Positions 3,484-49,560 of a DNA stretch of 64,000 nt are shown one piece after another (the stretch's first letter is position 1; every line of letters starts with the position of its first letter). The stretch spans positions 310,001 through 374,000 of the forward strand of contig NZ_QAYX01000019.1 in the NCBI RefSeq assembly GCF_003054705.1, given 5' to 3'. Below the pieces are notes generated by a model. The model was not told the origin of the DNA and did no database searches. It saw only the letters and a list, made by a program, of their open reading frames with translations. Position numbers and translations under genes: made by a program. Source of the stretch: Opitutus sp. ER46. GTDB taxonomy: Bacteria; Verrucomicrobiota; Verrucomicrobiia; Opitutales; Opitutaceae.

Positions 3484-4305
3484 ATGAAGCAGACTACCCG
3501 TCTCTCTCTCCGTGTCCTGGGTTGCGTCGCGATCCTGGGCGTGGGCGCGTTGTTCACCAGCTGTGCCACTCAGGCACCGCTGCCCGCCGCCTCGGCGGCC
3601 GAGTTGGCGCTGCGCGATCCGGCGCGCAACAGCGCCATCAATCCCGTCCCGCGCGACGAGAAGTGGATGAAGCGCCACCAGGGTTTCGTGGCGGCCGCGG
3701 CGAAGGGCGGCGTGGACCTGCTCTTTGTCGGCGATTCGATCACCGATTTCTGGCGCAATGCGCCGGAGAAGAACGGTGGCCGCGCGGTCTGGGATCGCGA
3801 GTTTGCCCCGTTGCACGCGCTCAACATCGGCATCAGCGCCGACCGCACCCAGCACGTGCTGTGGCGGCTGCGCAACGGTGAGCTCAACGGCATCGATCCC
3901 AAGGTGATCGTGCTGATGATCGGCACCAACAACACCGGCTTCGAGAAAGACAAGGTCACGCCCCGCAACACCCCCGCGCAGGCCGCGGAAGGCGTGCGCG
4001 CGATCGTGCGCGAGCTCCGCCAGCGCGAGCCGCAGGCGAAGATTCTCCTGCTCGCGATCTTCCCCCGCAATGAGGGCCCGCTCGATGCGCAGCGCCAGCA
4101 GGTAAACGAGATCAACCGCGAGATCGCGCAACTGCACAACGGCGACACGATCCGCTTCCTCGACATCAACGCCAAGCTGCTGGAGCCGGATGGCACGCTC
4201 TCGCGCGACATCATGCCCGACCTCCTCCACCCCGGCCCGAAGGGCTACGAGATCTGGGCCGCCGCCATCAAGCCGGCGGTCCTCGAAATGCTCGGCCAGA
4301 AGTAA
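3484..4305 (+). CDS. SGNH/GDSL-type esterase lipoprotein
   Basis: A 273-residue protein with a lipoprotein-type signal ending LFTSC (Cys27). The catalytic blocks of SGNH hydrolases are all present: GDSIT with nucleophile Ser85 (block I), a Gly in NIGISADRT (block II), IGTNN with the Asn (block III), and DLLHPGPKGY with Asp and His (block V). It resembles the platelet-activating-factor acetylhydrolase-like group. In polysaccharide-degrading bacteria such enzymes often remove acetyl groups from sugars, which fits the neighbouring glycosidases, but lipid or other ester substrates are possible. The ATG at 3484 is chosen because it begins the signal peptide. The gene is divergent from the GH105 gene to its left. 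Confidence 0.85.
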   Translation: MKQTTRLSLRVLGCVAILGVGALFTSCATQAPLPAASAAELALRDPARNSAINPVPRDEKWMKRHQGFVAAAAKGGVDLLFVGDSITDFWRNAPEKNGGRAVWDREFAPLHALNIGISADRTQHVLWRLRNGELNGIDPKVIVLMIGTNNTGFEKDKVTPRNTPAQAAEGVRAIVRELRQREPQAKILLLAIFPRNEGPLDAQRQQVNEINREIAQLHNGDTIRFLDINAKLLEPDGTLSRDIMPDLLHPGPKGYEIWAAAIKPAVLEMLGQK

Positions 4306-4339: not shown

Positions 4340-4680
4340 GCCGCCGTAAAACGGGGCGCGGGTTTTGGGTAAATGGGGCGCGCGGTTTCGTCCCACTCCG
4401 CGGACAAGGGGCGCGCCCTTTCGAACGCCTTTCGCGCCAGGTGGGCGTGCCCTTTCGCCCCCGTTTCGCCGTGCCGGGGCGCGCGGTTTCGCCGCGGTTC
4501 CACACAAAAGGGGCGCGCGGTTTCGAACGCGTCTCGCGCCACATGGGCGCAAAATGGGCGCGCCGTTTCGAACGCGTCTCGCCCCACGTGGGCGCAAAAG
4601 AGGCGCGAGGTTTCGCATCGGACGATGCACGCGTTTCGGCACGACTTCGCCCCTTTGGGCGCGCCGTGACCTGGTGAGAT
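4340..4680. repeat. degenerate GGGCGCG-rich repeat block
   Basis: A block of imperfect repeats built around GGGCGCGCGGTTTCG. The clearest pair is two adjacent copies of about 47 bp starting near 4513 and 4559, both containing GTTTCGAACGCGTCTCGC and GTGGGCGCAAAA or a close variant. Long open frames cross the block on both strands, but they are Arg/Ala/Gly/Pro-rich and have no recognisable domain. A matching block in opposite orientation follows at 4810-5075. The 950 bp between the esterase and the next gene contain no gene I can support. Confidence 0.65.
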
Positions 4681-4809: not shown

Positions 4810-5075
4810 GCGGGGAAAATCGGCCGGCAGGTGCGCGCATGCCCGCCCCGTTCGCGCCCCTCTTCCGCCCCAGTTTCGTTGAGGCGTCGCAGGTATCCCG
4901 CCCCTTTCGCGCCCCGGTTTTGCGCCCTTCTCTCCTCGTTCCCTGCGCATCGGCGCCCCTTCCGCGCCCAAACTCTGCCCCCGGCGCGCCCTTTTTCCGC
5001 CCCGTCCGTGCCCCAACTGCGCCCCGCTTTGTTTGGCTCGGAGCCCCGCTTCCCGCCCCTTTCCGTTTTCGTGGC
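4810..5075. repeat. degenerate CGCCCC/TTTCGCGCCCC repeat block, inverted relative to 4340-4680
   Basis: The sequence repeats variants of CCCGCCCCTTTCGCGCCCC and TTTTGCGCCC. These are the reverse complement of the GGGGCGCG/GCAAAA motifs in the block at 4340-4680, so the two face each other. Between them lies a fragment related to the CTCCTGT array (about 4685-4735, containing CTGTTCGGGCCCTCCGTTG). No coding function is supported. Confidence 0.55.
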
Positions 5076-5102
5076 AACGAAAACGGACGATCAGGAGGTG
5101 AC

Positions 5103-5203
5103 GAGGGCTGCAATTATTATCCGTTATCCACCAACGGATAACGCGATAATGTCCAGATACTCCCGAATAATGTCCGGATACTTTTTCATAATGTCCGGAT
5201 ACT
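5103..5203 (+). repeat. copy 1 of a dispersed ~100-bp element with three 21-bp-spaced direct repeats
   Basis: The element starts with GAGGGCTGCAATTATTATC (5103-5121), continues with a hairpin whose arms are CGTTATCC and GGATAACG, and ends with three copies of ATAATGTCCGGATACT at 5146, 5167 and 5188 (the first has one substitution, GTCCAG). The repeat starts are exactly 21 bp apart. The same layout occurs in reverse orientation at 49269-49370, with the 19-bp end identical. It is AT-rich compared with its surroundings. It sits just beyond the 3' end of a minus-strand oxidoreductase gene. Confidence 0.85.
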
Positions 5204-5204
5204 T

Positions 5205-5234
5205 CTCTCGTTTTTTCGCACGAAAAAACGAGAG
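5205..5234. terminator. perfect 14-bp stem hairpin, possible bidirectional terminator
   Basis: CTCTCGTTTTTTCG, two bases, then the exact reverse complement. It lies 21 bp beyond the stop codon of the minus-strand oxidoreductase and immediately after the third 16-bp direct repeat. The T-run is inside the stem and not after it, so it is not a textbook intrinsic terminator. It could instead be part of the neighbouring repeat element, although the second copy of that element lacks it. Confidence 0.45.
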
Positions 5235-5254: not shown

Positions 5255-6640
5255 CTATTTCACGCGAATCGGCATCGGCAGCGGTTCGGTGCGCGATGGC
5301 ATCGGCGGATAATCGGGGCGTTCGAGTCCGGGAACGAGGTCGTTGATGTTGACCTTCGCACCGGTCTGCAGGCTGCGATTGGCCGCGATGCCCACGAGGA
5401 TTGACCACGCACCCGCGCGCTCGTCGGCGACGCGCTTGTAGCGATCGATCGACGGATCCGGCGCGAAGATGTCCTGCAACATGAGCCGATCGCCACCGCC
5501 GTGATCGCCCTCCGCGGTCCACGGCGTGATATCGTAACCCGCGCCGCGCAGCGGAATGATGCGCGTCTTCACACCGTTGGCCGCGATGCCGCCCTGCACG
5601 GTTTCGGCGCCGTTGATGTACGTCGACTCGACAATCGTGTGTTCGAGCCGGCCCTTGGTGCCGTTGAAGGAAACCGTGTAGCCCTCCCACGCGTTGAACG
5701 CGTTGAGCGAGTAGCTGAGCGTCGCGCCCGTGTCGTAATTCACCAGCGCGTTCATTGTGTCCTCGATATCGATATCGGGCCGCCACACACAGCGATCGCG
5801 GTAGTAGCCGTCGTGCGCCTCGCAATCGAGGTACAGGGCCTTCAGGTGCGGAAACGCCGCGAGATCCATGTAAAACCCGCAGCGATCTTTTTCGGGACAG
5901 GTGTGACAGCGCTCGTGCGGACCGGTGAGGCCCATGCGCTTGGCGGTCGCCGGCGTGTAAAACTCGCGCTTGCCCATCGCCATAACCGACACGGGGGTGG
6001 CACCGAGCCACCAGTTGATGAGGTCGAAATGATGCGTGGCCTTGTGGACGAACAGGCCGCCGGAAAACTGCTTGTGGCTGTGCCAGCGGCGGAAGTAGTC
6101 GGCGCCATGGTGCGTGTTGAGCAGCCAGTGAAAATCAACCGAGAGAATTTCGCCGATCTCACCCGCCATGAGGAGCTCCTTCACCTGCGAACGCGGCGGC
6201 GAGTAACGATAGTTGAAGGTGACGCGGCAGTTGCGACTGGTGCGGCGACGCGCATCGACGATCTGCCGGCACTTCTCGGCGTCGATCGTCATCGGCTTCT
6301 CGGTGATCACGTCGCAACCGGCCTCCATCGCGCGCACGAGATACTCGTGGTGCATGAAGTCCGCCGTGGTTACGATGACGACGTCGGGCTTGGTCTCCTT
6401 CAGCATCCGGCCAAAATCCGCGGCGACATAACCCAGAGGCACCACCGCACCATTTTTCTTGGAGCGCTCGCGGGCCAAATCGACCCGCGCGACGTTGGAA
6501 TCGCAGAGCCCCACCAACTGCGCCCGGTCGGCGTAGGGCTGCTCAATGGCATCCTGGTAGATTTCGTGGCGCGAACCCAGGCCAACGATCGCATAACGAC
6601 GCCGTTGGGACTCGCCGGACTTGGAAGTGAAAGCGGACAT
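5255..6640 (-). CDS. Gfo/Idh/MocA-family oxidoreductase with a cysteine cluster
   Basis: A 461-residue NAD(P)-dependent sugar oxidoreductase of the Gfo/Idh/MocA family. Residues 17-24 (YAIVGLGS) begin the Rossmann fold, and the EKP signature is at 114-116. The segment FVHKATHHFDLINWWLG near 197-213 is typical of the C-terminal domain. An insertion carries cysteines 245, 248, 254, 273 and 284 (HERCHTCPEKDRC and onwards). CxxC clusters of this kind occur in a subset of the family and may bind metal or an Fe-S centre; I infer this from spacing only. I chose the ATG at 6640, close before the Rossmann strand; an ATG 33 bp upstream is possible. The substrate is unknown, likely a sugar or polyol. 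Confidence 0.82.
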   Translation of the reverse strand: MSAFTSKSGESQRRRYAIVGLGSRHEIYQDAIEQPYADRAQLVGLCDSNVARVDLARERSKKNGAVVPLGYVAADFGRMLKETKPDVVIVTTADFMHHEYLVRAMEAGCDVITEKPMTIDAEKCRQIVDARRRTSRNCRVTFNYRYSPPRSQVKELLMAGEIGEILSVDFHWLLNTHHGADYFRRWHSHKQFSGGLFVHKATHHFDLINWWLGATPVSVMAMGKREFYTPATAKRMGLTGPHERCHTCPEKDRCGFYMDLAAFPHLKALYLDCEAHDGYYRDRCVWRPDIDIEDTMNALVNYDTGATLSYSLNAFNAWEGYTVSFNGTKGRLEHTIVESTYINGAETVQGGIAANGVKTRIIPLRGAGYDITPWTAEGDHGGGDRLMLQDIFAPDPSIDRYKRVADERAGAWSILVGIAANRSLQTGAKVNINDLVPGLERPDYPPMPSRTEPLPMPIRVK

Positions 6641-6843
6641 GGAAGGGTCGAGATTGGGCACATCCACGCGCAAGAGCCAGACCCGGGTTGACGCCGGCTG
6701 GGCCGCGCGCCGAGGCCGTTTTCACCCTGCGACATGGCTTCGCCGCCAGCAACGGATGGACCTGCCGGACAGTTGGGCCGTGGCCGGGGACGCGCCGCGG
6801 GGTGTAAGGTTCTCAGGATCGGATCCTCTGCGGGTTCTGCGAG

Positions 6844-6901
6844 CTCCTGTTGATAGTTTGGGATCGGGAGCCGCGGATTTCCAAGGCAGGTTTCACAGGA
6901 G
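6844..6901 (+). repeat. solitary CTCCTGT...ACAGGAG inverted-repeat unit
   Basis: A single unit bounded by CTCCTGT (6844-6850) and ACAGGAG (6895-6901). It is preceded by GATCCTCTGCGGGTTCTGCG and followed by CTAAGGGAGACAACAGAGGG, the same flanks as in the array at 1448-2160. It lies in the 450-bp gap between a minus-strand oxidoreductase and a plus-strand receiver-domain gene. I see no other gene in that gap. Confidence 0.75.
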
Positions 6902-7092
6902 CTAAGGGAGACAACAGAGGGTAGAATTGAGGTTTGAGCGCCCGCGGAGGCAGCCCGGCTTCCGATCAAGCCCCCGGAAGAATCCCGGGGAAAAGTTCGG
7001 TCATTCTCCCGCCCCAATCGCCAAAGATTCGGTTGCGGCAGAGGTGAGGGACCTTGTGTTCTACACAACCCTAGCCCGCGATTTTCCCACGT

Positions 7093-7515
7093 ATGTCCAT
7101 CCCCGCCAGCCCCTCCCTCAACTTTCTGGTGATCGATGACAACGCGGACAGCCGGTTCCTGCTGGTGAAGACATTGCTGCGGAAGTTCCCGGCCGCGCTC
7201 GTGCAGGAGTGCCAGAGCGCGCCGAGCGCGATCGACTTGGTGCGGCAGGAATCCCACTCGGCTGTCGTGATGCATCGCGCGTCCGAGCTCACGGGCCTGC
7301 AGTTGCTGCGGGAACTCCGCGCGGCCAACGGCACGGTGCCCATCATCGTGGTTTCGAGCATCGATCGGAGCCAGGAGGCAAAGGCGCTCGGGGCTGACGG
7401 CTTCCTGCTTTACGACGAATGGCTGCGCATCGGGACCGTCGTGGCCGAATTGCTCAAGAGCCGGTCCTCACGGCCACCCTTCGCCACCGAGTCCCAGGAA
7501 GAAGCCGCGAAGTGA
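7093..7515 (+). CDS. divergent receiver-domain protein lacking the phospho-acceptor Asp
   Basis: A 140-residue single-domain protein with a CheY-like fold. It has the acidic pair in FLVIDDNADS near the N-terminus, the ELTGLQLLREL helix, and the GADGFLL segment at the expected spacing. However, the strand that should end in the phosphorylated Asp reads SAVVMHRASELTG, with Met/His where Asp is expected. It is therefore probably a pseudo-receiver acting by protein contact and not by phosphorylation. It has no output domain. No kinase gene is adjacent. The start gives MSIPASPSLNFLVIDD; no clear ribosome-binding site precedes it. Confidence 0.72.
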   Translation: MSIPASPSLNFLVIDDNADSRFLLVKTLLRKFPAALVQECQSAPSAIDLVRQESHSAVVMHRASELTGLQLLRELRAANGTVPIIVVSSIDRSQEAKALGADGFLLYDEWLRIGTVVAELLKSRSSRPPFATESQEEAAK

Positions 7516-18449: not shown

Positions 18450-18670
18450 ATCTCTTTCTCTTACTCCTACTCTTCCGCTTTCTCCCGAGGGATTGAGGGA
18501 TTGAGGGATTGAGGGATTGAGGGATTGAGGGATTGAGGGTCGCCCGCTCAGTGGCTTCGCCACTTTCACTTTCACCCTCACTCTCACTTTCACTCCGAAG
18601 GCGTTCTCGGCCGGCCTCCACCGGCCGGCCTGAGGGGGAGTAAGAGAAGGAGGAAGAGTAAGAGTGAGAT
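18450..18670. repeat. repeat element with six GAGGGATT units, copy 1
   Basis: Six exact tandem copies of GAGGGATT (18487-18534) plus a partial unit lie between a CTTACTCCTACTCTTCC tract on the left and a GGAAGAGTAAGAG-type tract on the right, which are inverted relative to each other. In between are ACTTTCACTC-type tracts, CCGAAGGCGTTCTCG, and a hairpin with GGCCGGCC arms (18609-18630). A second copy with the same order and also exactly six units is at 40495-40715. No gene lies in this gap. Confidence 0.8.
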
Positions 18671-40494: not shown

Positions 40495-40715
40495 GGTTCT
40501 TACTCTTGCTCGTACTCTTCCTCTTTCTCTCGAGGGATTGAGGGATTGAGGGATTGAGGGATTGAGGGATTGAGGGATTGAGGGTCGGTCAGTCAGTCAC
40601 TCCGCACTTTCACTCTCACTTTCGCTCTCACTCCGAAGGCGTTCTCGTTCTCGCGCCCGGCCTCGGAGAGAAAGAGGAAGAGTAAGAGGAAGAGAAAGAG
40701 CTCGCGGCGGACGCG
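40495..40715. repeat. repeat element with six GAGGGATT units, copy 2
   Basis: Same layout and orientation as 18450-18670: a TACTCTTCCTCTTTCT tract, six exact GAGGGATT units (40532-40579) and a partial one, ACTTTCACTCTCACTTTCGC tracts, CCGAAGGCGTTCTCG, and GGAAGAGTAAGAGG-type tracts that invert the left side. It lies in the 499-bp gap between rsgA and the permease gene, which shows no gene. Confidence 0.8.
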
Positions 40716-47722: not shown

Positions 47723-47818
47723 GCGCCCCCACCGTCGCCACAACGCCGCGGGCACGCAAGCCGGCGGAATGGGGCGGCGGGATCCGAGGGGGATCTCAGG
47801 AGCCCTCGCCCCGCGGGG

Positions 47819-47872
47819 TTCTCGTTCTCGTTCTCGTTCTCGTTCTCGTTCTCGTTCTCGTTCTCGTTCTCG
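47819..47872 (+). repeat. nine tandem TTCTCG hexamers
   Basis: A perfect run of nine TTCTCG units, followed at 47923-47940 by GAGAACGAGAAAGAG-type purine tracts which are the complement of the first. Located in the 228-bp gap between purN and prmA, 97 bp before the prmA start. A hexamer in a non-coding gap would vary in number without a frameshift. Confidence 0.9.
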
Positions 47873-47950
47873 TTAGGTCGCACCAACCGGGGCGGCGCAC
47901 GGCGGCGCCGCAGTCGAGAGAGAACGAGAAAGAGAAAGAGGGGGGGCGGG

Positions 47951-49138: not shown

Positions 49139-49268
49139 GCCCCCACCCTCGCCAGAGCCACGCGGGTTGTAAATCCCGGGTTTGGCCGGCGCGTCGACGT
49201 TTCCTACCAGCGGCTCGCGACTGTCGACGCTGCCCGGTCGACCGCCACGCCGATCGGAGCGCGCCGCG

Positions 49269-49370
49269 AGTATCCGGACATTATTCCGGAGTATCCGGAC
49301 ATTATGCGGGAAGTATCCGGACATTATTCCACAACCCATTATGGATTAGTTGATAATAATTGCAGCCCTC
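49269..49370 (-). repeat. copy 2 of the dispersed ~100-bp element (opposite orientation)
   Basis: AGTATCCGGACATTAT occurs at 49269, 49290 and 49312 (spacing 21 and 22), followed by a hairpin-like segment that pairs with G-U wobbles, and GATAATAATTGCAGCCCTC at 49352-49370. Read on the minus strand this is the order seen at 5103-5203. It lies in the 422-bp divergent gap between the RfaE2-like gene and a secreted-protein gene. The rest of the gap shows no gene. Confidence 0.85.
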
Positions 49371-49560
49371 GGCCCCTGGGCTCCTGCCGCCGACGCGTGC
49401 CGCTGCCTCCGAACGCCACCTCCGGATCGGCGTGGCCGCGTGCCGACGTTCGCCAGGAGGATGGAACCGGCGGCGCCATGGATTGCCTGAAGCTAAGAAA
49501 GCGGGCATTGCCGCGTCTTTCGCCCTGACTGCATCGTTCTGCTCCCGCCTCTCCTGCTCC

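Follow-up and report, generated by a model that had tools for sequence, protein, structure and literature searches.

Some 87 composite intergenic DNA elements with compensated spacing in Opitutus sp. ER46, tentatively read as platforms for a protein complex

The window analyzed here, by which we mean the whole 64,000-nt stretch of Opitutus sp. ER46 contig NZ_QAYX01000019.1 from position 310,001 to 374,000, contains two copies of an intergenic element built around tandem 16-mers, and raises the question of whether such an element is a piece of a transposon or a site at which a protein assembles. A first-pass annotation had described three 16-mers on the plus strand, and their starts at 5146, 5167 and 5188 are indeed separated by steps of exactly 21 bp. 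The first of them reads ATAATGTCCAGATACT, one base off, and the second and third are exact. The annotation's second copy in the opposite orientation is also real, with minus-strand 16-mers starting at 49327, 49305 and 49284 (steps of 22 and 21 bp), and the 19-bp end GAGGGCTGCAATTATTATC is common to both copies. With up to three mismatches allowed, the window holds six matches to the 16-mer compared to 0.08 expected, a number reached in none of 100 shuffles.

Column conservation across 85 copies of the element (and also across 66) places copy 1 at 5084..5207 on the plus strand. It begins with a weakly conserved, G/A-rich outer part (GGA ... AGG ... C, 5084..5102), which is followed by a left block, GAGGGCTGCAATTATTA (5103..5119), with the C of the family form CGAGGGCTGCAATTATWA at position 5102, and by a 26-bp linker (5120..5145). 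Site 1 (ATAATGTCCAGATACT, 5146..5161) and site 2 (ATAATGTCCGGATACT, 5167..5182), both located by 16-mer match, precede site 3 (ATAATGTCCGGATACT, 5188..5203), whose start lies 85 bp from that of the left block. Copy 2 occupies 49265..49389 on the minus strand, with the left block at 49354..49370, sites 1 and 2 at 49312..49327 and 49290..49305 (again by 16-mer match), and site 3 at 49269..49284, which starts 86 bp from the left-block start. The gap that holds copy 1 is convergent and flanked by a GDSL lipase-type and a Gfo/Idh-type oxidoreductase gene, and that of copy 2 is divergent.

The window carries several other repeats. Identical GAGGGATT arrays of 6.6 units at 18487-18539 and 40532-40584 each lie within a composite of polypyrimidine/polypurine tracts, and these composites are likely to be another dispersed repeat of ~200 bp. 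In addition, GTTCTC is repeated 9.5 times at 47818-47874, a 257-bp unit 2.8 times at 1439-2165, and a GC-rich 45-bp unit 2.5 times at 4505-4615, in the gap that also contains element copy 1.

Genome-wide, the element is present not in the two copies known from the window, but in about 87 (the ER46 genome, G000, consists of 5.71 Mb in 25 unordered contigs; L-numbers below denote fetched loci). The pattern ATAATGTCCRGATACT has 194 exact matches, 96 of which read ATAATGTCCGGATACT and 98 ATAATGTCCAGATACT, and the reversed-pattern controls gave zero each. About 8 kb around each 16-mer cluster was taken, and the resulting 83 stretches together with the window contain 86 elements, each located via at least one exact ATAATGTCCRGATACT. 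The 87th element (L422, two sites) was located later; it is excluded from the layout and neighborhood counts, and its position is included in the spacing test described below.

The element is ~124 bp long, lies nearly always between genes, and runs from the left block CGAGGGCTGCAATTATWA through a ~26-bp linker to what are usually three 16-mers (three in 57 of the 86 elements, two in 27, one in 1 and four in 1, for a total of 230 sites). In the aligned copies, the left block takes the form (C)GAGGGCTGCAATTATWA and is preceded by the weak G/A-rich outer part, and the conserved span, derived from 85 copies, extends from ~19 bp upstream of the left block to a point ~19 bp past the last site's start. 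The fixed columns of the linker are a C at −22, CAG at −14, and ACTT..CGGG before site 1, the rest being mostly free. Its ATAAnnnnC ... CAGnnACT pattern looks like a split, degenerate 16-mer, the right half of which would be located ~22 bp before site 1. The sites themselves are not entirely equivalent, as in 79 of the 86 elements position 10 of the first 16-mer is an A, and the later sites mostly carry a G there. Linkers and flanks are unlike in most copies, and the sites are alike.

This constancy can be put in numbers. Sites 1 and 2 diverge between copies by ~3% regardless of whether the corresponding linkers are 26% or 75% different, and the left block diverges by 14–16% across the same linker range; in the eight pairs whose linkers are less than 20% different, the values are 1% and 6%, respectively. 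With up to three mismatches allowed, the 16-mer has 247 matches in the genome (4 for the reversed control), of which 230 are inside the 86 elements. The 17 matches outside include, among the matches listed, two in L422 and four single ones in fetched loci. The left block in its family form CGAGGGCTGCAATTATWA has 78 matches at the same threshold (control 3), 77 of them within elements. Decayed pieces are therefore few. The exact 16-mer by which elements were entered may miss heavily decayed ones, and the left-block search is independent of it.

The hairpin that had been noticed at ~5122-5143 is present in the linker of window copy 1 but is not a feature of the family: RNAalifold, run on 55 copies, puts no pair there, and none of the eight pairs covaries. 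Nor does any base-pair covariation stand out among 1248 variable column pairs of 77 copies (largest z 2.7). The linkers of 86 copies reach a somewhat lower folding energy than their mononucleotide shuffles do (−4.7 compared to −3.5 kcal/mol), presumably because of the conserved CC and GG columns. Separately, hairpins of the GTTTTCG...CGAAAAC type adjoin some elements (window 5063-5086, L058, L062, L071), and such a hairpin can overlap the third site (GGATCTTTTGTTTTCG).

The spacing of the sites is tightly constrained. Of 144 spacings between adjacent sites, 139 are 19–23 bp, four are 32 bp and one is 11 bp, and none falls within 12–18 or 24–31 bp. The 11- and 32-bp spacings represent whole helical turns, and the vector strength at 10.5 bp is 0.89, a value that mostly reflects the 21-bp spacing itself. 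In the 57 three-site elements, in which every spacing is 19–24 bp, the distance from the left block to site 3 is 85 bp (36 elements), 86 bp (19), 84 bp (1) or 88 bp (1). In all but two of the 57 it is thus 85 or 86 bp, despite three intervals that vary by up to 4 bp, and none of 20,000 permutations matched this tightness. In eight elements site 1 is shifted by 2 bp toward the left block, and the spacing that follows is 23 bp in six of these. When the analysis is confined to elements whose linkers are unlike (32 elements), the first compensation persists (0 of 20,000 permutations) and support for the second drops (p = 0.037, 19 elements). We read the compensated intervals as reflecting a single rigid assembly that gauges the overall length. 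The earlier proposal of cooperative protein binding on one face of the DNA agrees well with site spacings of 19–23 bp, rarely 11 or 32 bp, that compensate one another, and such binding is what this sequence pattern would predict.

To describe the placement of the elements, genes were called with a custom codon-usage script and not with a standard gene finder. By these calls, an overlap with a gene is seen for two of the 86 elements, and one element lacks a called gene downstream. The 84 element-bearing gaps comprise 38 same-direction, 35 convergent and 11 divergent ones, compared to 191, 46 and 67, respectively, of 304 gaps without an element (p = 7e-7), so that convergent gaps are enriched and divergent, promoter-bearing gaps are depleted. 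The orientation of elements in same-direction gaps is split 19 vs 18, which argues against a direction-dependent role. Likewise, the GC skew in element orientation is balanced (mean 0.0003; 48 positive, 38 negative), and there is therefore no link to replication direction; a KOPS- or Chi-like polarity was rejected, as element orientation does not follow GC skew. Next to the third site of the element in L048, at ~4040-4090, we noticed what appears to be the 3′ half of a tRNA-Arg, where ARAGORN reports no tRNA.

The copies are also distributed more evenly than by chance. For 86 positions (one of a tandem pair was dropped and the 87th element added), the coefficient of variation of the gaps is 0.66 compared to 0.95 for random positions on the same contigs (0 of 20,000), and 11 gaps are shorter than 20 kb compared to 20.5 expected (p = 0.002). 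Elements are found on 15 of the 25 contigs, with an even density over the 11 contigs longer than 100 kb (chi-square p = 0.96), and neighboring elements on a contig are on average ~57.5 kb apart. Eight neighbor pairs are closer than 12 kb, seven of them in the same orientation and one inverted at a distance of 7.4 kb; the sole pair closer than 7 kb is a same-orientation duplication.

Outside ER46, the family was not encountered. The first-pass annotation had considered that its two copies might be the only ones and that no relative might show the layout; the former is contradicted by the ~87 copies, but a conserved layout was indeed found in no relative searched. The exact 16-mer is absent from all 56 genomes of relatives, 26 of which are congeners. 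The two-site pattern is found in one of 372 genomes sampled from the order and in one of 387 sampled from the phylum (the two sets overlap), and the sole genome in each case is ER46. A covariance model, with which 59 ER46 hits, many of them used in building it, scored at least 80.7 bits, produced weak hits of 15.3–18.7 bits in three other genomes under strict filters that let through at most 59 scored candidates per genome; the 300 bases read at these three hits contain no 16-mer array. A script that searches for families of the same style, and that recovers this family in the window and 40 ER46 loci, detected none in 200 kb of G018, 400 kb of G008 and 163 kb of G014, three congeners of which G014 is the nearest by RimO (90%).

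In 26 congener loci, no element is present within 420 bases after rimO, and the next gene is, by eye, apparently unlike that of ER46. The adeC/NCS2 permease pair is complete in only one of 15 congener loci (G004; one other is an unusable partial and one is at a contig end), and its gap without the element measures 138 bp compared to 262 bp with it, i.e., it is 124 bp shorter. Among viral contigs, single matches occur in 24 stretches and two-site matches are absent, and plasmids yielded two weak matches, both to one copy; a phage or plasmid origin was rejected on this basis. A wider scan of contig collections returned at least 119 stretches, with one match per stretch among the 80 stretches listed. 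Among the papers listed, published repeats of such organisms or of such a style include no counterpart as far as titles and the opening parts of abstracts describe them. Downstream of rimO in many congeners (e.g., L308, L312-L316, L319-L324), a recurrent GTAGxAxCACxTA ... TAAGTAAATCCGC/TAAAAGCGCAGTTTG motif is seen by eye before the next gene and is perhaps a shared promoter, and contig C3 of G008 (L337-L356) contains dispersed repeats of other styles (CTCTCAACTCTCAG; TCACTTAATCGGAGGGAATCC).

Could the elements be mobile DNA? The ends of Mu and Tn7 carry several tandem transposase-binding repeats, and target immunity is a property of Mu/Tn7-like systems. It is conceivable, if rather unlikely, that the elements are non-autonomous mobile elements or single transposon ends, the tandem sites of which bind a transposase and the even spacing of which results from target immunity. 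The tandem sites do resemble the ends of Mu, Tn7 and IS21, the likeness being several tandem repeats at an end (for IS21, the L1/L2 and R1/R2 repeats, as given in PMC10122671). The linkers of L046, L047 and L048, which lie within 31 kb, are 85–100% alike in unrelated flanks, and the element was therefore copied to new places, so that some past mobility is likely; in general, pairs less than 30 kb apart are barely more alike than others (0.46 vs 0.41, 19 pairs). Nine of 85 copies, including window copy 2, bear a 3-bp direct repeat exactly at their conserved edges, compared to 1.5 expected. This is a weak hint at insertion, with an excess of this size reached at some offset in 9 of 300 permutations, before correction for the five repeat lengths tried. 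Of the other lengths, the 5-bp repeat at its best offset is found in 4 of 85 copies at unrelated edges (5 of 300 permutations), and repeats of 4, 6 and 8 bp are not significant by permutation of the 85 copies. The shorter gap of G004 and the absence of the element from congeners also speak for mobility.

Several observations stand against it. There are no terminal inverted repeats (the best inverted identity near the ends is 0.53 over 10 bp), and inverted end pairs a few kilobases apart are not the pattern, given neighbors that average 57.5 kb; seven of the eight pairs closer than 12 kb share one orientation, unlike the two ends of a transposon. Decayed copies and fragments are few, though dead copies should yield these, and the sites are conserved while the linkers diverge. 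The rve-domain search has one match in ER46 (and matches in 6 of 14 control genomes), a gene that by its sequence we take to be an IS3-type transposase and whose nearest element is ~34 kb away, and the suggested pairs of elements flanking a transposon gene are thus not found for istA-like (rve-domain) genes. Of the 11 loci fetched in a transposase search that covered rve and Y1, one contains elements, owing to a separate Y1 insertion there. An IS21-type end, as proposed initially, is not supported, as the rve-domain search yielded no IstA-type gene in the genome and the element has neither terminal inverted repeats nor a second inverted end. The proposed MITE fares no better, considering the lack of terminal inverted repeats, the mostly diverged linkers around intact sites and the few relics.

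Other known kinds of element were compared as well. Tandem, phased sites are typical of operators, and the intergenic placement would also suit a large regulon in which a transcription factor occupies the three sites to regulate adjacent genes. We consider this improbable because, compared to gaps without an element, enrichment is strongest for convergent gaps and depletion strongest for divergent ones, same-direction gaps show no preferred orientation, none of the gene families represented by the 577 called genes of these loci exceeds eight members, and 20 neighbors read by eye look functionally unrelated. Plasmid iterons are directly repeated at intervals of about two helical turns next to an AT-rich block, and the element shares both the spacing and an adjoining block, but it has ~87 copies over 15 contigs. 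A transcribed RNA element (a terminator, sponge or small RNA that acts via its sequence or structure) would account for the enrichment at gene 3′ ends and for the terminator-like hairpins that, by eye, flank several copies (window 5205-5234, L026, L058); it is nevertheless very improbable, with no covarying pairs, evenly split orientations, and a helical phasing and compensated spacing that make sense for double-stranded DNA and not for RNA.

REP or BIME-like repeats dispersed by a Y1 (RAYT-type) transposase are an equally remote explanation. In PMC3733652, REPs are described as mostly intergenic, with some families being species-specific, and as situated predominantly between convergent and same-direction genes, which parallels the placement and lineage specificity of the element. 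ER46 has 13 Y1_Tnp matches (12 above cut-off), and one such gene lies between two elements in L042. However, only one of the ten Y1 loci fetched, which cover ten of the 13 matches, has an element in its stretch, and the element consensus, in contrast to REPs and BIMEs, contains no palindrome, no covarying hairpin and no GTAG/CGTC tag. The six loci with an L042-type Y1 unit bear ends of their own (GCCAAGGGGGACAGAC ... ATGTCCGTCCCCT, with variants) that are unrelated to the element, and since the unit recurs at five other fetched loci from which the element is absent, the L042 Y1 gene was rejected as a partner. The unit in L042 (3995-5952; also in L386) lies between direct repeats of 512 bp that are 96% alike, and an edge of these coincides exactly with a left-block start. 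The same locus has a CRISPR-like array at 6175-7152 (15 copies found, 65–68 bp spacing), which begins ~0.2 kb from an element. The element fits none of the known families tested, with IS21, MITE and REP/RAYT not supported.

The explanation that we favor, tentatively and at somewhat below even confidence, is that each element serves as a platform of double-stranded DNA on which one rigid multi-subunit protein docks, and that selection maintains these platforms, probably for organizing the chromosome. Several copies of one sequence-specific protein would line up next to one another along a single face of the helix, possibly joined by a second protein at the left block, to form a single rigid complex that spans about eight helical turns from the left block to the third site. 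Selection would maintain some 87 such platforms, fairly evenly placed and depleted from divergent gaps, and their likeliest purpose would be chromosome-wide organization (nucleoid folding, anchoring or positional marking, or the control of topology at convergent gene ends). Protein binding, the single complex and the organizing role are all what we infer from (i) the compensation between intervals, (ii) the helical spacings, (iii) the constancy of the sites, (iv) the small number of orphan sites, (v) the even spacing and (vi) the convergent bias, each of which supports the platform.

Several observations count against a platform. The element is missing from 26 congeners, which is odd for an important chromosome function, and the congener stretches of G018, G008 and G014 contain no analogous family. 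The near-identical linkers in unrelated flanks at L046-L048 are how mobile DNA behaves, and the 3-bp direct repeat signal lowers our confidence in the platform and raises that in mobile DNA. The G004 gap, shorter by the length of an element, counts in the same direction, as do the even spacing, which could also stem from transposon target immunity, and the position of one of the two window copies in a divergent gap.

To our knowledge, bacterial chromosome-wide site families are few and consist mostly of short single sites. The proposed platform might work like Noc- or SlmA-type sites or like the REPs that bind gyrase. Noc forms oligomeric nucleoprotein complexes at ~70 NBSs in Bacillus subtilis according to PMC4331003, and NBSs are 16 bp long according to PMC8429893; the Noc sites of B. 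subtilis and the SlmA sites of E. coli resemble the element in being tens of dispersed chromosome sites. NBSs, however, are described as discrete palindromes with a gap at the terminus, whereas the element usually consists of two or three direct, phased sites and a separate left block, and the ER46 genome is represented by 25 unordered contigs. E. coli REPs are targeted by gyrase (PMC3733652) and BIMEs bind several proteins (PMC2817692).

Taken further, it is possible, though doubtful, that ER46 possesses a lineage-specific system of ~87 large multi-site platforms, fairly regularly placed, bound by an undescribed protein that gauges overall length in helical turns, and without a known counterpart among the families compared. 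A large composite site with length-compensated spacing that is kept in one species and was not encountered in its congeners would show that such systems can arise and spread fast. If the elements are mobile DNA instead, the scarcity of the decayed copies they leave behind would also be unexpected. The element itself offers a clear DNA bait for its candidate binding protein.
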